From a virus: DNA of 22,106 nucleotides. The notes under the pieces were generated by a model that was given only the letters and a program-made list of their open reading frames with translations, made no database searches and was not told the origin of the DNA. The stretch covers positions 1 through 22,106 of IMG/VR virus record IMGVR_UViG_3300032092_004790; one strand, given 5' to 3'. Every line of letters starts with the position of its first letter. Within the stretch, counting starts at the first letter, position 1. Position numbers and translations under genes: made by a program. Below, piece after piece: positions 2 to 13,495 of this stretch.

Positions 2-547
2 TCACATTTCTTTGTATGTGAAGATGATATGCTTATAAAAGATGTTAATATATTCGACAAATATATTAGTGCGAGTAAAATAAGCGGAATACAATATTTC
101 ATATATACTTCTGTAGCATGGGATAGTGGACAAAAAGGAGAACGCACTCCTAAAGCTGTAGTTGAATATCCAGATAATACTAGAATTAAATTCAATTATA
201 ATATGTGTAATGAATTTACATATAAAACAAAAAACTTGATACAAAATGTAGGGTTATATGACGAAAATTTTCGTTATCTATTTGATGTAGACTATGCATA
301 TAGAGTATCTCAATATACTCACAATCCTTTTTGGTATTTTTCCGATTTGTTAGAATCTGATAATTTAATAGATAATAATTCAGAAGCTACATCTCGATTA
401 GATGCAGGTGGTCAACGATCATCAAATCTTCAACCAGAGCATAATAAATTTTATAATAAACATGGAATGTATATAGGTAATATACCTTCTTTAAATAAAA
501 ATGTATTAATTGATAGACTAAAAGATCTTAGAAATAATGTCAGATAA
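2..547 (+). CDS. Glycosyltransferase, GT2-like, C-terminal part (5' end outside window)
   Basis: The frame is open from the first bases of the window, so the gene starts upstream and about 181 codons are visible. The first visible residues read FFVCEDD, which resembles the acidic metal- and sugar-nucleotide-binding strand of GT-A glycosyltransferases. Further on, the segment IQNVGLYDENF followed by an acidic D-V-D-Y-A-Y-R stretch matches the acceptor-side pattern of GT2 proteins (G-x-x-D-E-x-F ... D-x-D-x-x-x-R). A similar NIGLYDERF segment occurs in the gene at 4833. It probably transfers a sugar from a nucleotide donor in the cytoplasm. It overlaps the next gene by 11 bases, so the two are likely translated from one mRNA. 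An ATG at 29 lies inside the conserved strand and is unlikely to be the start. The family is fairly clear; donor and acceptor are unknown. Confidence 0.65.
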   Translation, partial: SHFFVCEDDMLIKDVNIFDKYISASKISGIQYFIYTSVAWDSGQKGERTPKAVVEYPDNTRIKFNYNMCNEFTYKTKNLIQNVGLYDENFRYLFDVDYAYRVSQYTHNPFWYFSDLLESDNLIDNNSEATSRLDAGGQRSSNLQPEHNKFYNKHGMYIGNIPSLNKNVLIDRLKDLRNNVR

Positions 548-1415
548 TATAAAAATTCTAATTCTAACAAATACTTTTGGAAAATATAAAAGACAGGATA
601 TAGCAGTAGAATCCTTTTTATATCTTAAGAAACTTTATCCAGAAAACATAGATATTTTAAATGTTCAGTTTAAAGATGAAAAAGACAGTTTTCAAAATGT
701 ATATAGTGATATTCCTGTAGATTTTTGTTTAGATATTTCTAGTAAAAAATATATTTCAAGTTGTTCAAAAAAACTTCCAAGTATTTCAGAAATTATTTTT
801 CGAGGTTTTCGTAATGATTATTACGACTATGTAGTTTATGTAAATTCTGATGTTATACTTTTACCAAGATTAGTAGAAATTATTCTTAATGAAAAACCAG
901 ATTGTATGACAGGTCCAAGGTTAGACATTGATGATATAGATTCTTTTCAAGATGTTTTACAAGAGAAGATCAAACCCATTCGCACAGAAATTGCAGGATA
1001 TGACTATTTTGTTTTTGAGAAAAAATGGTTCAAAGAATATAAACAATATTTTGTTAGTAAATTTTTAATAGGTAAACCGCTTTTTGATGTAGACTTTGCA
1101 GGTTTAATGGTATTATTCGGACGAAAAACTATTATAGCAAACGACTATCCACTTTCAGCACTGCATATATATCATGGTAATTCTTCTGTGACTGATGATT
1201 GTTTGGAAAAAACACATAACGAAAAAACACATAATGAAAATCCGTTGTTTACTATAGCCAATAATGTTATGTATTATAATTTACAGTATAATCTTTGTCG
1301 AAGAAAACCTTGGGGAGCATTTATTAATCCTGAGAAAAATGAAAAAGAATTTCAAAAAAATTTCTTTGATTCTATGAATATTCATAGCAATAATAATATT
1401 AAATATATCGAATGA
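537..1415 (+). CDS. Putative GT-A-fold glycosyltransferase
   Basis: This 292-residue protein opens with a beta strand (IKILILTNTFGKYKRQD) of the kind seen at the start of nucleotide-sugar transferases. Near residues 98-107 it has VVYVNSDVIL, where N103-S104-D105 occupies the place of the DxD motif. A later G-Y-D-Y-F-V-F segment and a conserved-looking H-I-Y-H fit an acceptor region. No membrane segment is visible. A 15-base tandem duplication at 1206-1235 adds a second EKTHN near residue 228. It overlaps the upstream gene by 11 bases and the downstream gene by 4 (ATGA), typical of translational coupling. I recognise the fold type but not a named family, so the transferase role is inferred from the motif and the neighbours. 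Confidence 0.55.
   Translation: MSDNIKILILTNTFGKYKRQDIAVESFLYLKKLYPENIDILNVQFKDEKDSFQNVYSDIPVDFCLDISSKKYISSCSKKLPSISEIIFRGFRNDYYDYVVYVNSDVILLPRLVEIILNEKPDCMTGPRLDIDDIDSFQDVLQEKIKPIRTEIAGYDYFVFEKKWFKEYKQYFVSKFLIGKPLFDVDFAGLMVLFGRKTIIANDYPLSALHIYHGNSSVTDDCLEKTHNEKTHNENPLFTIANNVMYYNLQYNLCRRKPWGAFINPEKNEKEFQKNFFDSMNIHSNNNIKYIE
1206..1235 (+). repeat. 15-base tandem duplication inside a coding region
   Basis: Two adjacent 15-base units (1206-1220 and 1221-1235) differ only at the last base and each encodes EKTHN. The frame is kept. It looks like a recent slippage duplication in a surface loop of the glycosyltransferase. Confidence 0.9.
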
Positions 1416-2050
1416 AAGTATATACGTTTTTTACTGATAGTCATCGAGAACTACTTAAAATTTTTCAAGATAATTTTCCTTATGCAGAAGCGGAACTTAA
1501 TACAAAATGGTTTCCGCAAGAGTGTAAAACAGGAAGTTTTATGTCTGATGGTTGGAATTCTACCATGAAAAGAAAAGTCGAATATATTTTACAGTCATTG
1601 AATGAAACATCAGAAAATGAGTGGTTTGTTCATTCAGACTGTGATATTGTTTTGTTTGATGGTTGGACAGATATTCTTGAAAGACATAAAGATAATGTTG
1701 ATATGATGATTCAGAATGATCATCCACTTTTATGTGCTGGATTCTTTTTTTGTAAATCTAATACTCATACTAAACTACTATGGGGTAGAGTTTTAAGTGA
1801 TTTGCATAAATTTGAACATGACCAAGTTGCAATGAACTTTTTTATAAAGCAAATGCCTGAATTAAAGGTTGGAGTTTTACCTGATAGCTACTTCACATAC
1901 GGTGCATTTAAAAAAGGTGTTTGGAGTGGTGAAAATTTTGTTGTCCCTGATGCATCTAATTTAAAGATGTATCATGCTAATTGGGCAGAAGGAGTCGAAA
2001 ATAAGAAAAATCTTATTGAAAATATTATCCGTCAAAAAAATGGTTTATGA
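1412..2050 (+). CDS. Nucleotide-diphospho-sugar transferase (Nucleotid_trans / GT77-like)
   Basis: This 212-residue protein carries the ordered motifs of the Nucleotid_trans family. HSDCDIVLF contains the DxD metal site (D76-C-D78). LLCAGFFFCKSN corresponds to the G-F-x-x-x-K strand, HDQVAMN to the D-Q-x-x-x-N acceptor motif, and LPDSYFTYG to the late L-x-x-x-x-F element. Members transfer galactose, arabinose or xylose to glycan or glycoprotein acceptors in other organisms; the substrate here is unknown. There is no signal peptide or membrane helix, so it acts in the cytoplasm. The start overlaps the previous stop as ATGA, which supports this start and translational coupling. Its end overlaps the next gene by 11 bases. 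Confidence 0.7.
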   Translation: MKVYTFFTDSHRELLKIFQDNFPYAEAELNTKWFPQECKTGSFMSDGWNSTMKRKVEYILQSLNETSENEWFVHSDCDIVLFDGWTDILERHKDNVDMMIQNDHPLLCAGFFFCKSNTHTKLLWGRVLSDLHKFEHDQVAMNFFIKQMPELKVGVLPDSYFTYGAFKKGVWSGENFVVPDASNLKMYHANWAEGVENKKNLIENIIRQKNGL

Positions 2051-2891
2051 TTTTAAATATTTGAGGCCGTATCCTCCAAAGTATCCAGCTTATCCACCGT
2101 ATAGTAATATTGAAAACTATATGGAACATTATTTCTTTGATTATTATAAAAAGAATATTGAAGACTTTAAAAAAATAGATCGTCAATATCTTCCTATTTT
2201 CTGGACAACTCTTTATAACGATCATATTCATGTCAACACAGCAGAATATTTAAATGCATTAGACCAAACAAAAAAATATTTTACAGTTAATCAACATGAT
2301 GATGGTATAAGATATTCTCTTCCACAAGATACAATTGTATTCTCTGCCTCCGAAAATGGACACGGAAAAATATATCCAATACCTTTATTAACAAGTCCTA
2401 TACCTAATATAGGCGAAAATTTAGATAAAGATATTTTATGTTCATTTGTCGGAACTATTACACATCCTTTAAGAATAGCATTATATCAACTTTATGGAGG
2501 AAAAGAAAATTTCTATTTTTCTGAAATGAAAAATTGGTCGCCTGTTATTACAGATGATAAATTTGAAGAATTCAAAACTATTACAAAGAGATCTAAATTT
2601 TCTCTTTGTCCAAGAGGAAATATAATTCAATCTTTTCGTATCTATGAAATATTACAATTGAATAGTGTACCAGTTATTATTGCAGATAAATTTACCTACC
2701 CATTTAAAGATTTACTAAATTGGGAAGATTTTTCTATTATAGTTAATGATCCTAGAGAATTAGAGTCTAAATTAATGTCTGTAACAGACGATGAGTATGA
2801 TAAATTATTGAATAGAGGTGAAGAAATATATCAAGAATACTTTACTTTAGAAAAAATGTGTTTAAATATTAAAAAAATATTATGCGATTAA
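2040..2891 (+). CDS. Exostosin-like glycosyltransferase (GT47-type), first copy
   Basis: The 283-residue protein has the C-terminal exostosin core. FSLCPRGN (C190-P-R-G-N194) is followed by SFRIYEIL, then SVPVIIADKFTYPF and LLNWEDFSIIV. These are the UDP-sugar binding and acidic-loop elements of the family. I chose the ATG at 2040. A longer frame opens at 1974, but it would overlap the previous gene by 77 bases, and its extra residues are lysine-rich with no family resemblance. With 2040 the overlap is 11 bases, as at the other junctions here. The N-terminus has a Pro/Tyr-rich stretch (PYPPKYPAYPPY). Two more exostosin-like genes lie at 6667 and 7613. Family good, substrate unknown. Confidence 0.7.
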   Translation: MVYDFKYLRPYPPKYPAYPPYSNIENYMEHYFFDYYKKNIEDFKKIDRQYLPIFWTTLYNDHIHVNTAEYLNALDQTKKYFTVNQHDDGIRYSLPQDTIVFSASENGHGKIYPIPLLTSPIPNIGENLDKDILCSFVGTITHPLRIALYQLYGGKENFYFSEMKNWSPVITDDKFEEFKTITKRSKFSLCPRGNIIQSFRIYEILQLNSVPVIIADKFTYPFKDLLNWEDFSIIVNDPRELESKLMSVTDDEYDKLLNRGEEIYQEYFTLEKMCLNIKKILCD

Positions 2892-3445
2892 TAATAGACG
2901 TAGGATGCAATGTATTGGAAGGTTTTAAAAAATTAAAATCTGTTGAAAATATAAATGAAAATGATAGGAAAGTTTTTGTAGAAGCTAATCCTGAATGTTG
3001 GAATTTTTTAGAGAATGAAATATCTAAAATACAAAACAGTGAATTTATAAAAAAGGCACTTGATACAACTAATAGAACTGTCGAGTTAATAACAAGAGCA
3101 GATAAAAGAACTGATACCGCTGCTACTATTTTAGGTAGAAAATTTATTGAAGACAGTTTAAATAGATGGAATATAAAGGTTGATAATTATTTAACCTACT
3201 ATGTTTCCACAGTAACAATTCAAGAAATTATAGAAAGTCAAAAAGAAAAATTTGATGATATAGTATTAAAACTCGATGCCGAAGGTGTAGAATATACAGT
3301 TCTCCAACAGATTTTAGATAATAATATTCATATAGATAAGATATATTGTGAATTTCATGTTCATAATGTAGAAGATGAAAATAATAAAAATATTTTAATT
3401 CAAAAACTTAACGAAAAAGGTATTTCTATTCTTAATTGGGATTAA
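2882..3445 (+). CDS. FkbM-family SAM-dependent methyltransferase
   Basis: The 187-residue protein has the Rossmann-type SAM site IIDVGCN (residues 4-10) as motif I, the acidic end of strand 2 as VEANPE (around 33-38), and the FkbM signature LKLDAEGVEYTVL near residues 129-141. FkbM proteins O-methylate hydroxyls on polyketides, sugars and similar molecules. Next to this many glycosyltransferases, a capping or decorating methylation of a sugar is the natural reading, but that is inference. It is somewhat short for the family. It overlaps the preceding gene by 10 bases and is followed 4 bases later by the HAD fusion gene, so it belongs to the same operon. Confidence 0.75.
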   Translation: MRLIIDVGCNVLEGFKKLKSVENINENDRKVFVEANPECWNFLENEISKIQNSEFIKKALDTTNRTVELITRADKRTDTAATILGRKFIEDSLNRWNIKVDNYLTYYVSTVTIQEIIESQKEKFDDIVLKLDAEGVEYTVLQQILDNNIHIDKIYCEFHVHNVEDENNKNILIQKLNEKGISILNWD

Positions 3446-3449
3446 AAAT

Positions 3450-4817
3450 ATGGCTATAAAAGCAATATTATTTGATTTGGATGGTGTTATAATAGACGCT
3501 AAAAAAATTCATTTTAATTCTTTAAATGATGCTATTAGAATATATGACCATCGTTGTATAATCTCATATGAAGAACATTTACAAAAATACGACGGTTTAA
3601 AAACAGACCAAAAATTAAAGATTCTGACAAAAACTAAAGGTTTGTCAGAATCTTTATATAAAGATATTTGGAATAAAAAACAAAAATTAACTATAAAATA
3701 TTTAAATAAACTTGTTCCAAATCCAGAATTGATAAAAACATTAGAACGATTAAAATCCGAAAATTTTAAAATAGCATGTTGTACTAACAGTATCAAAGAT
3801 ACTGTAATGTTTTCATTAGAAAAAATGAATATTAAACATTATTTCGATTTAATAATTTCTAACCAAGATGTTAAAAATTCAAAACCTAGTCCAGAGATTT
3901 ATTTAAAAGCTATTTTAGAATTTGGAGTTAATCCAGCGGAAGTTTTAGTTGTAGAAGATTCACCACATGGTTTACAAGCTGCATATTTAGCTAACACTAA
4001 TATTTTAAGAGTCGAATCTCCTGATAGTATAAATTTTGAATTGATAAGAAATTATATTAACCATATAAATAGAAATATGATTCCTAAGTGGCAAAATAAG
4101 AAAATGAATATTTTAATTCCTATGGCAGGTGCAGGTAGTAGATTTGAAAAAGCAGGTTATGTTTTACCTAAACCTCTTATTGATGTCAACGGAAATCCTA
4201 TGATTAAAACCGTAGTAGATTGTTTAAACGTTGATGCTAATTTCATCTTTATTGTACAAAAATCCCATAACGAAAAATATAATCTAAAATCTATGTTATC
4301 TTTGATAGCACCAAATTGCTGTGTTGTAGAAATTGACGGTATAACAGAAGGTGCTGCTTGTACAACTCTTTTAGCAGAACACCTTATTAATAATGACCAA
4401 CCTCTTCTTATAGGTAATTCTGATCAATATATAAAATGGAATTCTAATGAATTTTTCTATAAAGTACAAGAGCAACAAATAGATGCTAGTATATTAACAT
4501 TTAATGCTAACCATCCGAAATGGTCTTATGCTAAAGTTGATGATTATGGTTTTGTAACAGAAGTAGCAGAAAAAAATCCTATTTCTGATTTAGCTACAGT
4601 TGGCATATATTATTGGAAACATGGAAAAGACTATGTTCGATATGCAAAACAAATGATCGAAAAAAACATAAGAGTTAATAATGAATTTTATGTGTGTCCA
4701 GTTTTTAATGAAGCTATAAACGACTCCAAAAAAATAACAACATACAATGTAGATGAAATGTGGGGTATAGGAACTCCAGAAGATTTAGAAAACTTTTTAA
4801 ATAAAAGCGATATATAA
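3450..4817 (+). CDS. Fusion: HAD-superfamily phosphatase + sugar nucleotidyltransferase
   Basis: This 455-residue protein joins two enzymes. Residues 1-205 are a HAD hydrolase of the beta-phosphoglucomutase/phosphatase type: FDLDGV with D9 and D11 (motif I), CTNS with T112 (motif II), K145 in KPSPEIY (motif III), and VVEDSPHG with E169-D170 (motif IV). Residues from about 219 are a GlmU/RmlA-type nucleotidyltransferase with the P-loop-like signature P-M-A-G-A-G-S-R-F (224-232) and LPKPL (239-243). GNSDQY near residue 325 is the metal-binding strand. Together they could dephosphorylate or isomerise a sugar phosphate and make an NDP-sugar or CDP-alditol. The exact substrate cannot be read from sequence. 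An in-frame ATG at 4104 opens the second domain. The first domain contains a perfect 16-bp inverted repeat (3616-3656). Confidence 0.8.
   Translation: MAIKAILFDLDGVIIDAKKIHFNSLNDAIRIYDHRCIISYEEHLQKYDGLKTDQKLKILTKTKGLSESLYKDIWNKKQKLTIKYLNKLVPNPELIKTLERLKSENFKIACCTNSIKDTVMFSLEKMNIKHYFDLIISNQDVKNSKPSPEIYLKAILEFGVNPAEVLVVEDSPHGLQAAYLANTNILRVESPDSINFELIRNYINHINRNMIPKWQNKKMNILIPMAGAGSRFEKAGYVLPKPLIDVNGNPMIKTVVDCLNVDANFIFIVQKSHNEKYNLKSMLSLIAPNCCVVEIDGITEGAACTTLLAEHLINNDQPLLIGNSDQYIKWNSNEFFYKVQEQQIDASILTFNANHPKWSYAKVDDYGFVTEVAEKNPISDLATVGIYYWKHGKDYVRYAKQMIEKNIRVNNEFYVCPVFNEAINDSKKITTYNVDEMWGIGTPEDLENFLNKSDI
3616..3656 (+). repeat. Perfect 16-bp inverted repeat inside the HAD domain
   Basis: Bases 3616-3631 are the exact reverse complement of 3641-3656, with a 9-base loop. 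In RNA this makes a 16-bp stem in the middle of a coding region. No U-tract follows it, so it is not a standard terminator. It encodes roughly KILTKTKGLSESL. Confidence 0.9.
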
Positions 4818-4832
4818 AATTATCTAATTTTG

Positions 4833-5642
4833 ATGAAAATAAAATTATATATTAATACATATAATGCTAATAACTTATTAAATGATTATTGTTTAAAAAG
4901 TTTATTTGAAAGCGATTTTGATCAAGATAATACTTTTGTTAATGTAGTTGATAACCACAGTAACGTTTTTATAGAAGAAGAATATAATAAAAAGGTAAAT
5001 GTAATACATAATCAGTTAAGACCAGACTTTTCTACAGGTCATTTATCAAGAAGTTGGAATTTATGTTTGATAAATGGATTTGTAGATTTAGAAAATCCAG
5101 ATTGCGACATTGTAATTTTATGCCAAGTTGATAGTTTTTTAAACAAACAATGGTTTTCGAATGTATTAAACCTTAAAAATACATATAAATTAGATTATGT
5201 TACATATGGATCAGGCGATCAGTTTCAATATTTTACTCCCGAAGCTATAAAAAATATAGGATTATATGACGAAAGATTTTGTAATATTGGTTATCAAGAG
5301 GCTGATTATTTTTTAAGAGCAGCAAAATATCATCCAAATAAAACATCAATAAACGATGCCGCGCATGGTAGAGTTTTTAACAATTTAAATTTAAATTTTC
5401 TAGACACAGAAAAACTTCATACAGGATTTGTAAGAAAAGAGCAGAGTCATATAGAATCATTAAAATATCACGGATTTTCGTTAAATATGTTCAATCATAA
5501 ATGGGACGCTATACCACAGCATTGGCAACCTAACACCATTAGTAACGCAAAGCTTAAAACCAATAATTATATTTTATATCCATATTTTGAAAATAAAATA
5601 TTAAAAGAAACCCTAATACAACAAAATTATATAATACCATAG
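4833..5642 (+). CDS. Glycosyltransferase, GT2-like
   Basis: The protein has 269 residues from the ATG at 4833. A TTG three bases earlier is a possible but less likely start. The order is GT2-like. An N-terminal strand IKLYINTYNANN leads to the helix DYCLKSLFESDF. VNVVDNHSN is the first acidic site, HLSRSWNLCLINGF is the helix seen in GT2 proteins handling nucleotide sugars, and ILCQVDS (D100) sits where DxD is expected. IKNIGLYDERF ... QEADYFLRA matches the acceptor motif, in which E and D usually occur as ED. There is no membrane helix, so it is a soluble transferase. The previous gene ends 15 bases upstream and the next starts 2 bases after its stop. The DxD is reduced to QVD, so activity is probable but not certain. 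Confidence 0.65.
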   Translation: MKIKLYINTYNANNLLNDYCLKSLFESDFDQDNTFVNVVDNHSNVFIEEEYNKKVNVIHNQLRPDFSTGHLSRSWNLCLINGFVDLENPDCDIVILCQVDSFLNKQWFSNVLNLKNTYKLDYVTYGSGDQFQYFTPEAIKNIGLYDERFCNIGYQEADYFLRAAKYHPNKTSINDAAHGRVFNNLNLNFLDTEKLHTGFVRKEQSHIESLKYHGFSLNMFNHKWDAIPQHWQPNTISNAKLKTNNYILYPYFENKILKETLIQQNYIIP

Positions 5643-5644
5643 TT

Positions 5645-6061
5645 ATGATTTTAATTTCACATAGAGGCAACTTAAATGGTCCCAGCATTTATGAAAATGT
5701 TCCACATCATATTCAAAAATGTTTAAATGATGGTATTGAATGTGAGATAGATGTATGGAAAATTCAAGATGCTTTTTATCTGGGTCATGATGACTCAGAA
5801 CATGAAGTAGATTTTTCTTTTTTAACACAAAAAGGCTTATGGTGTCATGCTAAGAACCTTGAAGCATTGAATGACATGCTGAAACAAAATATAAATTGTT
5901 TCTGGCATCAAGATGATGACTTTACGCTTACGTCTTCTGGTTTTATATGGACATATCCTAATAAGAGAGTTTTAGATAACTCTATAATAGTGGATAATGA
6001 TCCAAATTGGAAGGAAAAAAATTATCAATGTTATGGAGTATGTAGTGATTATATTTTATAA
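5645..6061 (+). CDS. Minimal GDPD/PLC-like phosphodiesterase
   Basis: This 138-residue protein opens with ISHRGN (H6, R7), followed by EN at 17-18, the metal pair E34 and D36 in CEIDVW, and LGHDD with H48. That is the active-site order of glycerophosphodiester phosphodiesterases (H-R-G ... E-x-D ... H). Full-length GDPD TIM barrels are about 240-300 residues, so this is roughly half size. The second half (FLTQKGLWCHAKN, CFWHQDDDF) still follows barrel-like strand spacing. It could hydrolyse or transfer a phosphodiester in glycan assembly; that role is inferred only from context. It sits 2 bases after one transferase and 2 bases before another putative one. No signal peptide is visible. Confidence 0.65.
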   Translation: MILISHRGNLNGPSIYENVPHHIQKCLNDGIECEIDVWKIQDAFYLGHDDSEHEVDFSFLTQKGLWCHAKNLEALNDMLKQNINCFWHQDDDFTLTSSGFIWTYPNKRVLDNSIIVDNDPNWKEKNYQCYGVCSDYIL

Positions 6062-6063
6062 TT

Positions 6064-6663
6064 ATGATAGCAGTATGCATAACTGGACAATTTAGATCTT
6101 GGGATCGTGTTAAAGATAATATTCTACAAAATATTATCAGAGATAACACTGACGTTTTTTTTGTATGTGATGAAGATTTATCAATACCTAACGTCAATCA
6201 TGAAATACTAAAAGACCCTCAATCAATTTACGACGAATCTGTTTTACAATCCTTTCGGTCTAGAAATGAATGTGTAACACCTATAGAAAATAGTGTTAAT
6301 ATGTTTTATAAAATAATGAAATGTAATGAATTAAAAAAACAATACGAAACCGAAAAAAATTTTAAATATGATATAGTTGTTCGACTTCGAACTGATACTC
6401 ATTTTCGAGAACCAGTTAGTTTCTCTGAAGAAAAAGATAAAATAACTGTACCTCATCATTTAGGTTATGGTGGAGTATGTGATCAATTTGCGTATGGTTC
6501 ATCAGATTTGATGGATATATTCTGTGATTTATTTCCTAATATGAAAAAATATTTTGATGAAGGACATATATTTCATCCAGAAAAACTATTGAAATATCAC
6601 TGTAATAAATTAGGTATAAATGTTGATGAACGTGATGTTGGTTATTTGGGTATTGTTAGGTAA
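6064..6663 (+). CDS. Glycosyltransferase-like protein with FKYDIVVRLRTD motif (paralog A)
   Basis: This 199-residue protein is paralogous to the gene at 8451. Both open with C-x-x-G-x-x-R-S (CITGQFRS here), and both have LKK-x-Y-E-x-E followed by NFKYDIVVR-x-R-x-D at about residues 99-111. D111 could be the metal or nucleotide ligand. A later F-A-Y-G-S-S-D-L-M-D segment matches FYFSNSENMDF in the paralog. I recognise this as a family found near glycosyltransferases but cannot name it confidently, so a GT-A-like role is inferred. The end is 3 bases from the end of the convergent gene on the - strand. Confidence 0.5.
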   Translation: MIAVCITGQFRSWDRVKDNILQNIIRDNTDVFFVCDEDLSIPNVNHEILKDPQSIYDESVLQSFRSRNECVTPIENSVNMFYKIMKCNELKKQYETEKNFKYDIVVRLRTDTHFREPVSFSEEKDKITVPHHLGYGGVCDQFAYGSSDLMDIFCDLFPNMKKYFDEGHIFHPEKLLKYHCNKLGINVDERDVGYLGIVR

Positions 6664-6666
6664 TAT

Positions 6667-7563
6667 TTACTCTAAATATTTTTCTATATTTTTCAAAAAA
6701 CCATGAGGTGAGAAATATTCTTCCCATAACTCTCTATTAGATTTTAGATCGAATTTACGTTCTTTAATTATAGAAGGAAGGTTTTTTATTTCTTCTGGAT
6801 TTATAAAAATTATATGCTTATCCCAGTCAATAATATTCTCTAGTGGTAGTATCGTGTCAGTATCTATTAATACAGGAACTCTACCAAAACAAAGAGTTTC
6901 GTAAAAACGATAAGAAAAATTACCGTTTCCTCTCATACAAAAAATATATTTGTTATCTGTCATATTTTTTATAAATTCTCTTTTACCCCTAAATTTAGGA
7001 AGTTCAGGGGACCAAAAACCAGATCGTATTATTTTATCAACAGGATAAACTTTTTCTATACTTTCTAGCATTTCTTTACGATTGCTATTATAAACACCAC
7101 AGAAACCTATAGAATCTTTACACTGTTCAGTAAAGATACAATCATCTGTTATAAGAGCAGGAAAAATCTTCTCTTTTTGAGTTATATTGCTTCTACCAAT
7201 ACTTGTTCTAAAAAGAATAAGATTATCGGGTAAATTATATTGTCTTTCGTCATCGTCATTATAAAAAGTTATAACTTTTTTATTGTACTTTTTAGCATAT
7301 TCGCAAATACTATATAATCTAGCATCATTAGGATTAAATTTAAAAGGAACACCTACATAATCACAATTTTCTATTTCAGTTTTTTCAAATAATGTTTGTC
7401 CTGAAAAAAATAATTTATTTAAAAGTCCATGATTCCAATAACCATATGAATTTATAGTTTCATTAAAAGCAACCTCATTCATAAAAGGTGCTACCCATAA
7501 AATTTCAGTAAACCCTTTGAGATCGTTCGGGGTTAAAATATTAAAATCTACATATATTTTCAT
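6667..7563 (-). CDS. Exostosin-like glycosyltransferase (GT47-type), second copy, opposite strand
   Basis: This is the only well-supported gene on the - strand. From the ATG at 7563 it encodes 298 residues; a longer frame to 7599 would run through its own promoter. The exostosin core is clear: FCMRGNGN (C209-M-R-G-N213), SYRFYETL, RVPVLIDTDTILPL and IIDWDKHIIFI. The N-terminal half has FNPNDARLYS and a DDDE run near residues 102-105, without an obvious match. It faces the gene at 7613 head to head, and their 49-base gap holds two mirror-image promoters. At its 3' end it converges on the gene ending at 6663 with a 3-base gap and no visible terminator. Family good, substrate unknown. Confidence 0.7.
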   Translation of the reverse strand: MKIYVDFNILTPNDLKGFTEILWVAPFMNEVAFNETINSYGYWNHGLLNKLFFSGQTLFEKTEIENCDYVGVPFKFNPNDARLYSICEYAKKYNKKVITFYNDDDERQYNLPDNLILFRTSIGRSNITQKEKIFPALITDDCIFTEQCKDSIGFCGVYNSNRKEMLESIEKVYPVDKIIRSGFWSPELPKFRGKREFIKNMTDNKYIFCMRGNGNFSYRFYETLCFGRVPVLIDTDTILPLENIIDWDKHIIFINPEEIKNLPSIIKERKFDLKSNRELWEEYFSPHGFLKNIEKYLE

Positions 7564-7568
7564 TAAAA

Positions 7569-7596
7569 TATTTAGAGAGTTGAAATTAAAAATCAA
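7569..7596 (-). promoter_or_regulatory. Promoter of the - strand exostosin-like gene (leaderless type)
   Basis: Read on the - strand: TTGATT (7596-7591), 16-base spacer, TAAATA (7574-7569), 5 bases, then ATG at 7563. It overlaps the + strand promoter and has the same geometry. Confidence 0.6.
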
Positions 7597-7607
7597 CATA
7601 TTAAATA
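7580..7607 (+). promoter_or_regulatory. Promoter of the gene at 7613 (leaderless type)
   Basis: TTGAAA (7580-7585), 16-base spacer, TAAATA (7602-7607), 5 bases, then ATG at 7613. The -35 elements of the two divergent promoters lie within each other's spacers, in a GTTGA ... TCAAC dyad (7579-7597). Confidence 0.6.
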
Positions 7608-7612
7608 TTTTT

Positions 7613-8443
7613 ATGTTTCAATATAATAATATATTTTCATCTGATCCTATAGAAAACTTTTGGGAAGGCGATTATCTTAACAACATTTTAGAGCCTTATA
7701 AGAATAAAAATATTAAAATTTTAATTTATTCAGAAAATACAAAAGATAAAGATTCCGTACTAAATTTTAAAATAAATTTTAAACCAGATTTGATATTTCA
7801 TATATCTGACGAATGGGGTAACTGGCATTGGCAAAAACTTATGTATGAAAATGTACCTTTAGTTTTTCGTCAATATATGTTTAAGCAATATCCTAAATTA
7901 TCAAATGTTTATCAGATTCCTCTTGGGTATATGAGTAATTATTTAAAACTAAAAAAACCTATAAAACAAATAAAGGATAGAGAAAATTTTTGGGGGTTTT
8001 GCGGAAATATAGAATCTAAAGAATGGCATATTTCTAAAAATAAAATAAAAGAACAAATTAGTAAATTTCCACACGAACATATATTCAGAACAGATCCAGA
8101 AAATATGTTTGATGTTTATAATAATAGTGTGTTTATGCCTAATAGAAGAGGTAATTATTCTTTAGACTGTTTAAGAATATACGAAGCATGTATGGTTGGT
8201 TGCATACCTATTATTGAAGGTTCACCAGATGAATTAACAGGATCATTTTCTTTTAATTTGAATAACAATAAAATTCCTTTTATCTTTATAGAAAATTACG
8301 AAAACTCGGTAGACAAGATTGAAAAATTATATAACGATAAATATAAATTACAAGAAATTTCTGAGTCGTGTATAGAATGGTTCTACCATCAAATAGATAG
8401 TATTCACTTTAAAATAAAAGAAATTTATAAAAATATAAAATAA
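7613..8443 (+). CDS. Exostosin-like glycosyltransferase (GT47-type), third copy
   Basis: From the ATG at 7613 the protein has 276 residues. The frame is open back to 7517, but that would cross the divergent promoter and the opposite gene's start. It has NFWEGDYLN near the N-terminus, an ISDEWGNWHW stretch, and the exostosin-like C-terminal core VFMPNRRGN (P176-N-R-R-G-N181), followed by LRIYEACMVGCIPIIEGS. It resembles the proteins at 2040 and 6667 in this core but not in the N-terminal half, so the three are probably not recent duplicates. A transferase role is inferred from the core. The next gene starts 7 bases after its stop. Confidence 0.65.
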   Translation: MFQYNNIFSSDPIENFWEGDYLNNILEPYKNKNIKILIYSENTKDKDSVLNFKINFKPDLIFHISDEWGNWHWQKLMYENVPLVFRQYMFKQYPKLSNVYQIPLGYMSNYLKLKKPIKQIKDRENFWGFCGNIESKEWHISKNKIKEQISKFPHEHIFRTDPENMFDVYNNSVFMPNRRGNYSLDCLRIYEACMVGCIPIIEGSPDELTGSFSFNLNNNKIPFIFIENYENSVDKIEKLYNDKYKLQEISESCIEWFYHQIDSIHFKIKEIYKNIK

Positions 8444-8450
8444 ATATAAA

Positions 8451-9149
8451 ATGAAAACAGCAATTTGTTTCTCTGGTGAATTAAGAAGTATTGATAAAAC
8501 TTATCATAAATTAAAAGATAAATTATTAGACCGATTTTCAGATTACGATATTTTCTATCATACTTGGAATGACGATCCAGATATTCATAAGTTACACTAT
8601 ATCGAAAAAGATAAAAATACTAAGAATATACTAATAGAAAATAGAGTAACTTTTCCAGAAAGAGAAATATTTCATAAAAATAAAAGACCAGAAGTTTTTG
8701 TTCAAGGAATGTTAAGACAACTATATTGTTTAAAAACGTGTAACGGTTTAAAAAAATTATATGAAAATGAAAACAATTTCAAATATGATATTGTTGTTAG
8801 AATAAGACCTGATTTACTTTTAGTAAACAACACTTCCCTTGAAAGGAAAATAGAGACATGGAATACTAAAAATTATATGTATACTACAGATCATGATGAT
8901 CACTCAGGTTATAATGATCGTTTTTATTTTTCCAATTCTGAGAATATGGATTTTCTTTCAGATAGATTAGATATATTAGATTACTATACAGATTTAGGAG
9001 GAGTTATTCATTATGAAACATTTTTTAAATTTTGTATAAAATATATTAACCTTGATGTAGCTCGTTCAAATATGCAATTTGTTTTATTAAGAAGTAATGG
9101 AGAAATGTCATCAAATTTATTGAAATATAATATAGACTTAGGTATATAA
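8451..9149 (+). CDS. Glycosyltransferase-like protein with FKYDIVVRIRPD motif (paralog B)
   Basis: The 232-residue protein shares with the gene at 6064 the opening CFSGELRS, the LKK-x-Y-E-N-E helix and NFKYDIVVRIRPD (F110 to D121), followed by NDRFYFSNSENMDF and a conserved-looking H-Y-E-T in the C-terminal part. The extra 33 residues include a YHTWNDD stretch near residue 40, another place where acidic residues could bind a metal. I infer a transferase or sugar-binding role from the motif and neighbours. Its 3' end carries the -35 and spacer of the following epimerase promoter (from 9120). TAAATA occurs 4 bases before the ATG, but no matching -35 is visible. Confidence 0.5.
   Translation: MKTAICFSGELRSIDKTYHKLKDKLLDRFSDYDIFYHTWNDDPDIHKLHYIEKDKNTKNILIENRVTFPEREIFHKNKRPEVFVQGMLRQLYCLKTCNGLKKLYENENNFKYDIVVRIRPDLLLVNNTSLERKIETWNTKNYMYTTDHDDHSGYNDRFYFSNSENMDFLSDRLDILDYYTDLGGVIHYETFFKFCIKYINLDVARSNMQFVLLRSNGEMSSNLLKYNIDLGI
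9120..9148 (+). promoter_or_regulatory. Promoter of the GDP-mannose epimerase gene (leaderless type)
   Basis: TTGAAA (9120-9125), 17-base spacer, TATATA (9143-9148), 5 bases, then ATG at 9154. The -35 lies inside the end of the upstream gene. Confidence 0.6.
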
Positions 9150-9153
9150 TAGT

Positions 9154-10146
9154 ATGAGTCAAAAGACAGCTTTAGTGTTAGGTGCTGGTGGATTTATCGG
9201 CAATCATTTAGTAAATCGCTTAAAAAGTGAAGGATATTGGGTTCGTGGTGTTGATCTTAAATACCCAGAATATCAAGAGAAAAGTAATGCAGATGATTTT
9301 ATAATTGGTGATTTGCGTGATGTAAAATTAGTTTCACTTGTAATGTGGTCCCCTCTTCAAAGAACTACAGAAGCGGGAAGCTTTGATGAAGTGTATCAAC
9401 TTGCTGCTGATATGGGCGGAGCTGGTTATATCTTTACTGGAGAAAATGATGCAAATGTTATGCATAACTCTGCAACAATCAATTTGAATGTAGTAGACTT
9501 TGCAGCAAAGTTTGGAGTTAAAAAGATTTTTTACTCTTCATCTGCTTGTATGTATCCTGCATATAATCAAGAAGATCCTAATAATCCAAACTGTGTAGAG
9601 AGTAGTGCATATCCTGCTGCACCAGATTCCGAATATGGTTGGGAAAAACTTTTTAGCGAACGCTTATATCTTGCATATAATAGAAACCATGGTCTTGATG
9701 TTCGTATTGCAAGATTCCATAATATTTTTGGACCTCTTGGAACATGGCAAGGTGGTAAAGAAAAAGCACCTGCCTCAATTTGTCGTAAAGTTCTTTCTGC
9801 AAAAGACGAGATTGAAATTTGGGGAGATGGCGAACAAACACGTTCTTTCCTTTATATTGACGAGTGTATTGAAGGTATTCGTCGTTTAATTAATGGTGAT
9901 TTCTCAGGTCCAGTAAATCTTGGCTCAGAGGAAATGGTTACTATTAATCAACTTGTTGATATTGCATGTTCTATTGAAAGTAAAAATCTTAAAAAGGTTC
10001 ATATCTCTGGCCCAACAGGAGTAAGAGGACGTAATTCAGATAATAAATTAATTAAAGAAAAACTAAATTGGGAACCGAATTATCCACTTTCAAAAGGTAT
10101 TCAAGAAACATATCACTGGATTAAGAGTCAAATGGAGACTAAATAA
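9154..10146 (+). CDS. GDP-mannose 3,5-epimerase
   Basis: This 330-residue extended short-chain dehydrogenase has the NAD motif GAGGFIG (10-16). Compared with the plant enzyme, the known catalytic and substrate residues keep one constant offset of 13: C132 in SSAC (C145), Y161 and K165 in YGWEK (Y174/K178), K204 in GKEKAP (K217), and R293 in GVRGRNSDN (R306). Long segments such as RFHNIFGPLGTW and GDGEQTRSFLYIDECIEG are typical. The enzyme turns GDP-D-mannose into GDP-L-galactose (and GDP-L-gulose) using enzyme-bound NAD. GDP-L-fucose synthase is the usual mis-annotation, but the conserved C/K/R set favours the 3,5-epimerase. It uses more CGT and CTT codons than the island before it. It would supply a GDP-sugar to a transferase such as the one at 12143. 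Confidence 0.88.
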   Translation: MSQKTALVLGAGGFIGNHLVNRLKSEGYWVRGVDLKYPEYQEKSNADDFIIGDLRDVKLVSLVMWSPLQRTTEAGSFDEVYQLAADMGGAGYIFTGENDANVMHNSATINLNVVDFAAKFGVKKIFYSSSACMYPAYNQEDPNNPNCVESSAYPAAPDSEYGWEKLFSERLYLAYNRNHGLDVRIARFHNIFGPLGTWQGGKEKAPASICRKVLSAKDEIEIWGDGEQTRSFLYIDECIEGIRRLINGDFSGPVNLGSEEMVTINQLVDIACSIESKNLKKVHISGPTGVRGRNSDNKLIKEKLNWEPNYPLSKGIQETYHWIKSQMETK

Positions 10147-10379: not shown

Positions 10380-12122
10380 GTGAGTTCTAAAACAGTTCAG
10401 TTTCAAAAAATAAAAGTTCGTAATTTCCTATCATACGGTGACTCTCCGATTGAAGTTGAATTCAAAAACGGTATTACATTTGTAACAGGATACAATAAGG
10501 ATGAAGAATCTTACAATGGTGTTGGTAAAACATCACTTATTGTTGAATCTTTATCCTTTTTGCTTTTCGGGGAAACATACAGAGACATTAATCAAAAGCT
10601 TATCAAAAATAAGTTTGGTGGAAAAACGTGTATTGTAGAAGGATGGCTAAAAGTTAACAATGACGAATTATATATAGTTCGTAGTCTTTCTCCTAATAAA
10701 CTTATCTTAACTGTTAATGGTGATTCAGACAGCTACACAAAGTCTGTTCCTGAAACCACTAAATATATTATAGACAATATTGGTGTGTCAAAAACTGTGT
10801 TCACAAACACTATTGTTATGACCAACCGAGAAAGCATGTCTTTTTTAAATCAGAAAAAAGAAGTCAAAACAAAGTTTATTGAAGGCATTCTTGGTCTTGA
10901 AGCATTCGCTGAATTTCTTCGTCTTGCCAAAGATGAAGCAAAACTTGCTGATGATAATCGCGCAAAAAAGTTTCAAGAAAGTACTCTTGTGGAAAGAGAT
11001 TTGAACAATGATCAAACTTACTATACTCAATATGAAGAGAAAAAAGTTCGAGACGAAGACCTTATTAATCAAAAAATAATACTTTTAAAAGCAGTTCAAC
11101 CTGTTGATAATTCTGAAAAAATAAATCAACTACAAGAAGAAAAACAAATTTTAGAAGATTCTTTACCTGAAAAAGAAGAAAGGGTTGGTAAAGGCATTAA
11201 AAAGAAAATGGAACTTGATGCAGATAAATCACAAAAGGAAAAAACACTTCGTGCATTGTCTGGTAAACTCACAGAATGTCCATCTTGTAAAAGACCTTTT
11301 CTTGATCATAACTCTGATGAAATAGAAAACGAAAAAAAGGTTTTAAGAGATAGTATAAATGAACTATCAGTTCAAATTGAAAAGTTCTCAAAGGCTATTA
11401 ATAAAGTCAACTCTGATATTTCTGAAATAAAAACCAAAGTTCGTGAAACGACGAACAATATTCAAAATTTACAAAACGAGCAACAAAAGTTTCTTAAAAG
11501 TGAGATGGAAATAAACAATCTACTTCAACAATTAGAAACTGTTCGTAATAGTGAAAATCCTTTTGGAGAAAAAATTGAAAAAGCTAAAGAAAGACTCTAC
11601 AAGTGTAAAGAACAGTTAGATGTTTTTATCAAAGAATCAAAACTTGCTAACATTGTTAAAGAAGGTGCATCACCTACAGGTGTAAAAGCTCTTGTTATCA
11701 AAAAAGTTATTAACCAATTAAACAATCGCATCAATCATTATCTTGTTCGTTTACATTCACCTTTTCGTATTTATTTTGATGAATTTTTTGAAGAGAATTT
11801 TAAAAGTGTAAATGATGAAGAATACTGCTATGGTAGTTTAAGTGGTGGTGAAGCAAAGCGTGTAGATTTTGCTATGCTTTTTGCATTTCGAGATATAAGA
11901 CGCTTACAAAGCAATGTTCACATCAACTTAACTGTTATGGATGAACTTTTTGACAGTGCATTAGACAGTACAGGAATGAACGACATTATGGAACTCTTAA
12001 AAGAGAGTAAAGATGAGTGCTTTATGGTTGTTACTCATAGACCAGATAATATTGATAATTATGGTTGCAACATTATAGATTTAATCAAAGAAAATGGCAT
12101 CACACTCTTGAATAACTCATAA
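10380..12122 (+). CDS. 46: gp46-like recombination endonuclease subunit (SbcC/Rad50-type ATPase)
   Basis: This 580-residue SMC-like ATPase has an N-terminal P-loop N-G-V-G-K50-T51-S inside a longer SYNGVGKTSL, with the strand KVRNFLSYGDSPIEV before it, as in T4 gp46. A coiled-coil centre (about residues 190-430) is interrupted by the zinc-hook CPSC (C300 and C303). The ABC signature LSGGE (487-491) and Walker B TVMDELFDSALD (D521, E522) follow, with the switch histidine in VVTHRPD. With gp47 (Mre11-like) it would process DNA ends for recombination-dependent replication. The gp47 gene is not in this window, whereas in T4 the two are adjacent. The start is GTG. The next gene's -35 overlaps its 3' end. 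Confidence 0.93.
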   Translation: MSSKTVQFQKIKVRNFLSYGDSPIEVEFKNGITFVTGYNKDEESYNGVGKTSLIVESLSFLLFGETYRDINQKLIKNKFGGKTCIVEGWLKVNNDELYIVRSLSPNKLILTVNGDSDSYTKSVPETTKYIIDNIGVSKTVFTNTIVMTNRESMSFLNQKKEVKTKFIEGILGLEAFAEFLRLAKDEAKLADDNRAKKFQESTLVERDLNNDQTYYTQYEEKKVRDEDLINQKIILLKAVQPVDNSEKINQLQEEKQILEDSLPEKEERVGKGIKKKMELDADKSQKEKTLRALSGKLTECPSCKRPFLDHNSDEIENEKKVLRDSINELSVQIEKFSKAINKVNSDISEIKTKVRETTNNIQNLQNEQQKFLKSEMEINNLLQQLETVRNSENPFGEKIEKAKERLYKCKEQLDVFIKESKLANIVKEGASPTGVKALVIKKVINQLNNRINHYLVRLHSPFRIYFDEFFEENFKSVNDEEYCYGSLSGGEAKRVDFAMLFAFRDIRRLQSNVHINLTVMDELFDSALDSTGMNDIMELLKESKDECFMVVTHRPDNIDNYGCNIIDLIKENGITLLNNS

Positions 12123-12142: not shown

Positions 12143-13495
12143 ATGCCTACAATCGTTTCAAATAATGAAGTTAAAAAAGTTCCGAATATAAAACCTTTAA
12201 ACGTCGGTTCTTTAAATAAAATAGAATTTTCTAATATAGTTTTTCCTTTTGGAAGAATTTTTGGTCCTAAAATATTTGGGGAATTGTCCCAAAAGTTGTC
12301 GGTATATTCGCCAAACAATAATGGTATAAAAATTCCTGTTCCTGGTGAAGGTCTTCCAAGAGTTATCAACTATTGTGCTGACCAAAGTGGTTGTGCTTTT
12401 TGGCGTATGATTTGGCCAGGAGATGAGCTTCTTGCAAATAACAGAGCAGTAGTAATGACACTTTATCAAATGGTTACACTTGGTCAATTTTATGGAGGAA
12501 TTGATGCAGTTCGTTTACAACGCCAATGCACTGAACCTCAACTCGAATTTATTAAATTTTTAAGAAATGTTTCAGATCAAATGAAACAACAAACAGGCAA
12601 AGGTTTCCGCATTATTTGGGAAGTGGATGATATTGTTTGCCCTGCGGTTGATATTCCAGACTATAATGTTTGCAAAACTGCATTTGAAGGCGACTCGGTT
12701 CATAACAATGTTAAGGAAATGATGAAGTATGTTGACGAGATGACTGTTGTTTCAGAACACATGCGTCAACATTATAAGCAACATTTAAATTTTGATAAAA
12801 TTACTGTTATTCCAAACTATGCACCAAAAAGTTGGATTGATCGTGGATTTGATGAAAAAGATATTCTTAGAAAATATAGTCGTAAAGGAAAGCCAAGAGT
12901 GCTTTATGCAGGAAGTGGAACACATTTTGATGTAAGTAATAAGGTTGGTCAAAAAGATGACTTTGGACATGTGGTTGATAAGATTATGGAAGACATTACA
13001 CTTCATAAAAAGTATGAGTGGGTATTCTTTGGCGCATTACCACTTAAACTAAAACAATTTATTGGAAAAGGAATTGAGTTCCATTCATGGACTTCTATTC
13101 TTGAATATCCGCAAAAGCTTCAAGAAATTGATGTTGATGTAGCAATCGCACCACTTCAAGACAATATTTTCTCTCGTTCAAAAGCAAATATCAAATTAAC
13201 AGAAGCAGGCGTTCAAGGCATTCCTTGTATTGCACAAAATATCGACTGTTATAATTCGGATGGTTGGAAATACTTGTTTAATACTGCTGATGAATTGTTT
13301 AATAAAATTGATGAAGTTTTAAAAACAGAAAATTCGTACATAGAAGCATGTCGTTTTGCACGCGAATATTCAGAGAAGTTTTTCTTACAAAATCATCTTG
13401 ATCAGTATATTCTACTCTATACAACAGAGTATGGCGATGAAAAACGAAAAGAGTGTAAAACATTCTTTAATAATAATAAAGAACAATTTCTATAA
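12143..13495 (+). CDS. GT4-type (GT-B fold) glycosyltransferase
   Basis: The 450-residue protein has a GT-B layout. After about 75 unique residues comes GCAFWRMIWPGDELL, the G-x-x-x-x-R-x-x-x-P opening found in phage GT4 proteins. Then come IIWEVDDI (acidic loop), MTVVSEHMRQH and ITVIPNY (end of the N-terminal domain), RVLYAGSGTH (start of the C-terminal nucleotide-sugar domain), VDVAIAPLQDN, and KANIKLTEAGVQGIPCIA, which carries the family's conserved glutamate region. It is flanked by its own promoter and a terminator, so it is monocistronic and sits between gp46 and gp43. Its codons match the replication genes, not the glycan island, suggesting long residence. Targets could be a virion protein or DNA bases; T4 also glucosylates its DNA, but this protein does not resemble the T4 enzymes to me. 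Confidence 0.8.
   Translation: MPTIVSNNEVKKVPNIKPLNVGSLNKIEFSNIVFPFGRIFGPKIFGELSQKLSVYSPNNNGIKIPVPGEGLPRVINYCADQSGCAFWRMIWPGDELLANNRAVVMTLYQMVTLGQFYGGIDAVRLQRQCTEPQLEFIKFLRNVSDQMKQQTGKGFRIIWEVDDIVCPAVDIPDYNVCKTAFEGDSVHNNVKEMMKYVDEMTVVSEHMRQHYKQHLNFDKITVIPNYAPKSWIDRGFDEKDILRKYSRKGKPRVLYAGSGTHFDVSNKVGQKDDFGHVVDKIMEDITLHKKYEWVFFGALPLKLKQFIGKGIEFHSWTSILEYPQKLQEIDVDVAIAPLQDNIFSRSKANIKLTEAGVQGIPCIAQNIDCYNSDGWKYLFNTADELFNKIDEVLKTENSYIEACRFAREYSEKFFLQNHLDQYILLYTTEYGDEKRKECKTFFNNNKEQFL

Follow-up and report, generated by a model that had tools for sequence, protein, structure and literature searches.

On what acceptor would a phage build a glycan if it carries a long run of glycosyltransferase (GT) genes and no membrane assembly genes beside them? 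The question is raised by a 22,106-nucleotide stretch of viral DNA (IMG/VR record IMGVR_UViG_3300032092_004790, positions 1 to 22,106; hereafter the window), a fragment of a T4-like phage in which the core genes to the right of the glycan island identify the landmarks: in rightward order gp46, a GT-B-type glycosyltransferase, a family B DNA polymerase, UvsX, a DnaB-type helicase (gp41) and gp32. We find that the island occupies a fixed slot between gp47 and gp46 whose cargo is exchanged between related phages, and as its acceptor we favour a virion protein, glycosylated in the manner of the chloroviruses, over lipopolysaccharide (LPS) and DNA, at a probability of about 40%.

A sequence-only reading had described positions 2–9149 as twelve consecutive genes for about nine glycosyltransferase-like proteins, a methyltransferase, a HAD-nucleotidyltransferase and a phosphodiesterase. 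Pfam, profile and fold comparisons confirm this inventory and support both the phage origin and the glycan-building character of the gene set, the make-up being nine glycosyltransferase-like proteins, one FkbM methyltransferase, one HAD-nucleotidyltransferase and one GDPD-like phosphodiesterase. Six of the nine glycosyltransferase-like proteins match curated GT-type or DUF7796 families in Pfam; the remainder needed profiles or folds. The region is tiled by 12 open reading frames (ORFs), eleven on the plus strand and one on the minus strand (6667–7563), whose neighbours either overlap or, in most cases, are separated by a few bases, and the G+C content of this left 9.1 kb is 26.5%, compared with 31% in the core. 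Only ∼78 residues of the first gene are cut off at the 5′ limit of the island, which is otherwise complete, and a thirteenth island gene (9154–10146) lies beyond the limits first drawn.

The DNA to the left of the window is seen in two near-identical contigs that each reach 9.4 kb further left: L023 shares 968 bp with the window at 99.9% identity, and L022 shares 2.9 kb at 97.4%. Their flank encodes UvsW, a gp55-like sigma factor, gp47, a glycosyltransferase, an AAA ATPase and the full-length first glycosyltransferase of the island. No membrane assembly genes are found in these 9.4 kb, directly upstream of the window, where their presence would have refuted the sequence-only reading, and the sister contigs G001 and G003 concur. 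The island lies between gp47 and gp46. Its right border is the gp46-like recombination nuclease subunit (10380–12122, plus strand; SMC_N, PF02463, E 9.5e-11, and synteny), followed on the same strand by the GT-B-type enzyme (12143–13495; phrog_7162, E 8.8e-25, and synteny; its profile finds no match in the PDB) and the gp43-like family B DNA polymerase (13565–16144; phrog_262, E 1.9e-194).

This arrangement recurs. A GT-B profile search returned 193 relatives in viral contigs, and 79 contigs were read: gp46 is upstream of the GT-B gene in all 75 contigs where gp46 is present (immediately adjacent in 56), and the DNA polymerase is downstream in all 76 testable contigs (immediately adjacent in 62). 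At least 39 of the 44 contigs that could be judged have glycan-type genes ahead of gp46, a figure that may be an underestimate because 242 of the 398 cargo ORFs carry no label. One contig (L124), in which gp47 and gp46 overlap, represents an empty site. We conclude that gp47-island-gp46 is a fixed slot, with cargo exchanged between related phages. The conserved core consists of GT2-like enzymes after gp47, the GT-A protein of 537–1415 in the closer relatives, and the GT-B enzyme after gp46; the variable cargo comprises tailoring glycosyltransferases, methyltransferases and nucleotide-sugar enzymes.

Comparison of the island in sister phages, as the sequence-only reading had proposed, gives the same picture of a shared slot with swapped cargo. 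Identity in the core genes rightward of the island is mostly 59–100% across six sister contigs, and many genes inside the island are unrelated. G003 shares several glycosyltransferases and the epimerase with the window, and carries an asparagine-synthase-like enzyme and two methyltransferases in place of the FkbM, HAD-nucleotidyltransferase and phosphodiesterase genes. In G001 the swap is coherent, GDP-mannose dehydratase, GDP-fucose synthase and a GT11 enzyme being found where the window has the epimerase. A second sugar cluster, with RmlD-, RmlB- and RmlA-like genes, lies away from the island in the first 20 kb of G003 (L013, 12946–15523).

No flippase, polymerase or prenyl-phosphate transferase is found in the island, as the sequence-only reading had stated, and the same is true of 31 viral records and of two large genomes. 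By a simple Kyte-Doolittle hydropathy scan, no convincing membrane helix is seen in the island genes of the window, none of the 398 ORFs in the slot (from partly redundant contigs) has three or more predicted helices, and no ORF has more than four in two large relatives, of 211 and 170 kb, that contain the island and were read whole. Polytopic neighbours are likewise lacking at all 16 viral HAD-nucleotidyltransferase loci, whereas each of the four cellular loci found has at least one neighbouring protein of 7–12 helices. In family scans of viral records that are not certified complete, the flippase family PF01943 is found in 0 of 31, compared with 4 of 4 cellular genomes carrying the same HAD-nucleotidyltransferase (13 of 14 controls positive), and the prenyl-phosphate sugar transferase family PF02397 in 0 of 31, compared with 3 of 4. 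These results fit the soluble acceptor originally proposed. They do not establish it, since soluble glycosyltransferases can extend host-made lipid-linked intermediates, and the lack of membrane genes is no proof because host enzymes could supply the lipid carrier.

The latter consideration is the basis of an explanation in which soluble phage glycosyltransferases alter the LPS O-chain or capsule of the host on its own lipid-linked intermediates, the host flippase, polymerase and ligase completing the product, with the purpose of keeping other phages out or preventing adsorption to debris. A host carrier would account for the missing membrane genes, and LPS remodelling is the published interpretation of the pelagimyophage glycosyltransferase genes (PMC7029224). 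A cyanophage homologue of the HAD-nucleotidyltransferase carries an LPS biosynthesis annotation, and the cellular homologues sit in loci with flippase-like proteins. Known O-antigen-modifying phage systems, however, bring membrane parts (gtrABC), and parts of this kind are not seen in the 31 viral records. The cargo diversity of close relatives would also demand a matching diversity of hosts, and the authors of the BASEL study call complete O-antigen modification within the lytic cycle likely futile (PMC11990801). We consider modification of host surface polysaccharide rather unlikely.

The individual enzymes, all encoded on the plus strand except where stated, suggest what the island might make. 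The GT2-like glycosyltransferase at 2–547, truncated at its 5′ end by the start of the window and present as a full copy of 259 residues in L022 and L023, matches phrog_2456 (E 5.4e-4), and its family profile matches a GT enzyme (5tze, E 2.8e-5) and GmaR (22ao, E 2.6e-4). The 537–1415 protein has no family match; its AlphaFold model, of moderate confidence (pLDDT 62), has a GT-A fold for which Foldseek returns TarP, RmlT and PBCV-1 A064R at E ∼1e-5, an NSD motif is conserved in the alignment, and the protein recurs in sister phages at 45–98% identity. Next come a member of the nucleotide-diphospho-sugar transferase family (1412–2050; PF03407, E 4.4e-14) and an exostosin-type GT47 (longest ORF from 1974, likely start 2040, to 2891; PF03016, E 4.6e-19; EXT1 7sch, E 4.9e-9). 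A second exostosin-type GT47 is the sole minus-strand gene (6667–7563; PF03016, E 1.3e-10), with a 70% identical homologue on the same strand and at a similar place in G003. It is followed by an RXYLT1_C/GT47-like glycosyltransferase (7613–8443, 7613 being the likely start; PF24785, E 4.2e-7). Two DUF7796 proteins (6064–6663, PF25072, E 1.1e-10; 8451–9149, PF25072, E 3.5e-16) appear to be GT-A/GT6-like glycosyltransferases: the AlphaFold model of the second (pLDDT 87) is a GT-A fold nearest to GT6 enzymes (Foldseek, BoGT6a 4ayl, E 1.3e-6), and the first is assigned by the fold of this paralogue. The product of 4830–5642 (TTG start; phrog_2456, E 0.0028; 35–40% identity to island proteins in L030 and L028) is a probable glycosyltransferase and the weakest of the nine assignments.

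The remaining island enzymes would supply and tailor the sugars. The 9154–10146 protein is a close homologue of plant GDP-mannose 3,5-epimerase (2c59, E 3.7e-98) that keeps the catalytic motifs SSACxYP, YGxEK and KAPAxxCRK and would supply GDP-L-galactose, probably converting host GDP-mannose into this unusual sugar nucleotide. A HAD phosphatase/phosphomutase fused to a sugar nucleotidyltransferase (3450–4817; HAD_2, E 6.6e-35; NTP_transferase, E 2e-9; resemblance to beta-phosphoglucomutase structures and to 4evw) probably provides a second activated unit together with its phosphodiesterase partner, a short GDPD-like protein (5645–6061) in which HRG, ExD and HD are invariant or nearly so among 12 homologues and whose profile matches the GDPD 7e0v at E 0.0012. 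The glycosyltransferases would then assemble a short branched glycan directly on a cytoplasmic acceptor, and the FkbM-type methyltransferase (2882–3445; PF05050, E 8.9e-8) would methylate it. We describe the whole as a phage-autonomous cytoplasmic glycan-assembly locus; each of its enzymatic steps is inferred, and so, most of all, is the acceptor.

The match of the first family to GmaR, a cytoplasmic glycosyltransferase that acts on protein and takes part in flagellin regulation, bears on one further explanation: the product might be a soluble glycoconjugate, or host proteins might be modified to help take over the cell, apart from virion, DNA and LPS. Nothing else specific points this way, a cargo this large has no known precedent in such a role, and the variation between close relatives suggests an exposed, selected structure; we judge it very improbable.

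The position of the locus draws attention to DNA, since the GT-B gene is locked into the replication module, where an enzyme near the polymerase could act with the replisome, as the T4 alpha-GT reportedly does (PMC13216743). In this explanation a sugar chain would be attached to a modified base and would shield the phage genome from nucleases. The conserved glycosyltransferase on the gp47 side (L023, 7196–8050) matches the TAGT family (PF20691, E 3.2e-4, below the curated cut-off), the DNA sugar-on-sugar glycosyltransferase of T-even phages. We reject this resemblance as diagnostic of DNA glycosylation because, besides being below the cut-off, it is found in only 4 of the 28 members of this family, compared with a generic GT2 match in 12 of 28. 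No AGT or BGT family match is found among the window proteins scanned. The thymidylate-synthase family (PF00303) is found in 0 of 32 viral records, which may be incomplete, and the C5-methyltransferase family PF00145 in 0 of 22, with positive controls in both cases; Tet_JBP (PF12851) is found in 0 of 15, in a search without a positive control. With neither PF00303 nor PF00145 found, a hydroxylated base would have no known origin in these phages, which makes DNA a weak acceptor, and some ten glycosyltransferases plus methylation far exceed the usual needs of a DNA glycan. The T-even systems (alpha-GT, beta-GT and TAGT) resemble the window in placing GT genes inside a T4-type replication module and in the sub-threshold TAGT match, but the window differs in having no base-hydroxylating enzyme that we could find, many more glycosyltransferases, and nucleotide-sugar synthesis. 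Of the two acceptors originally proposed, virion protein or modified DNA, the first is therefore favoured and the second is improbable.

Glycosylation of a virion protein would give each phage its own surface glycan. Paramecium bursaria chlorella virus PBCV-1 glycosylates its capsid protein with mostly soluble glycosyltransferases, including A075L, initially annotated as an exostosin (PMC9614988), and mycobacteriophage virions are reportedly glycosylated (cited in PMC12619734). The likeness extends to the virus-encoded soluble glycosyltransferases and sugar-nucleotide enzymes, which are present as expected for such a system, to the exostosin annotation of the xylosyltransferase A075L, and to the fold of A064R, which resembles that of 537–1415. 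PBCV-1 also encodes a GDP-mannose dehydratase and a GDP-fucose synthase, as does G001. It differs from the phage in being a eukaryotic algal virus with a proven acceptor, and sequence similarity between the two is negligible.

Several observations weigh against a virion acceptor. No acceptor has been found, and virion proteins carry no tell-tale site; the island lies in the replication module and not beside structural genes; the missing membrane genes fit a host-supplied lipid carrier equally well; neither the 537–1415 protein nor a close GT-B relative was found in isolates of the phage collection; and counts of the late promoter (TATAAATA) are mostly at or below chance, and so unusable for expression timing. 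The location of the HAD-nucleotidyltransferase cassette in other phages gives no hint of the acceptor, because it lies beside structural genes in some of them and beside replication genes in the rest. The 2-oxoglutarate/Fe (2OG-Fe) oxygenase family PF13640 is present in only 3 of 22 viral records. A small 2OG-Fe(II) oxygenase at 5619–6098 in G003 (L013) appears prolyl-hydroxylase-like by eye; that it might make hydroxylated acceptor residues is pure speculation.

The suggestion that the island was gained from a host is not supported as a recent event. In a HAD-nucleotidyltransferase tree the window copy groups with phage copies (93/97), apart from cellular copies that number only four sequences, a thin sampling, and the HAD-nucleotidyltransferase/phosphodiesterase pair recurs upstream of gp46 in three other contigs (L025, L082 and L125). 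Taken together, and within this small cellular sampling, the tree and the recurrence of the pair favour transfer between phages over a recent capture from a host. Bacterial capsule and O-antigen loci do share glycosyltransferases, nucleotide-sugar enzymes, methyltransferases and the HAD-nucleotidyltransferase with its phosphodiesterase (L042), but their HAD-nucleotidyltransferase has polytopic flippase- or polymerase-like neighbours and that of the phage loci has none.

Closer parallels are found among the T4-like pelagimyophages and cyanomyophages (Kyanoviridae; PMC7029224), which have the same HAD-nucleotidyltransferase along with nucleotide-sugar enzymes and many glycosyltransferases. Comparable gene runs, with no annotated membrane genes within the run, occur in S-CAM9, S-PRM1, B23 and DSL-LC03. 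The genes of these phage groups, however, lie in a host-recognition cluster or are scattered by twos and threes, those of S-CAM9 and S-PRM1 being near auxiliary metabolic genes, whereas here they fill the gp47-gp46 slot, with the GT-B gene after gp46. Although the GT sets of T4-like aquatic phages are already known, a limited literature search found no account of the fixed slot, the locked-in GT-B gene or the genome-wide lack of membrane assembly genes.

The window DNA polymerase is ∼32% identical to cyanophage polymerases. No tRNA genes, sought as a clue to the host, are present in the window or the sister contigs, and scans for sigma-70 promoters and terminators gave counts near chance level. 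Insertions are seen in core genes of sister phages. In the near-identical phage G005 (L021/L052) the DNA polymerase gene is interrupted by a 359-residue ORF that probably represents a homing-endonuclease-bearing mobile intron or intein; the DnaB-type helicase of G004 (reversed, L017/L018, 13974–16364) has ∼340 additional residues; and a primase-like protein of G001 (reversed, 40481–42049) has an intein-like insert with the motif CFSGDVKIL.

Glycosyltransferase genes of aquatic T4-like phages are usually classed as LPS auxiliary genes. The conserved slot, swappable cargo, locked GT-B gene and lack of membrane genes together make a defined, testable unit, and the GT-B gene between gp46 and gp43 is a marker for finding such phages. 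We tentatively put forward the possibility that a large uncultured T4-like lineage carries a swappable glycotype locus dedicated to coating its particles with a phage-specific glycan, for which neither membranes nor the glycan machinery of the host would be needed. Such a system would be the phage equivalent of capsid glycosylation in chloroviruses, the glycan varying among closely related phages much as an antigen does. The question raised is whether phages give their own particles a variable glycan coat; if so, adsorption, recognition and particle stability would be affected.

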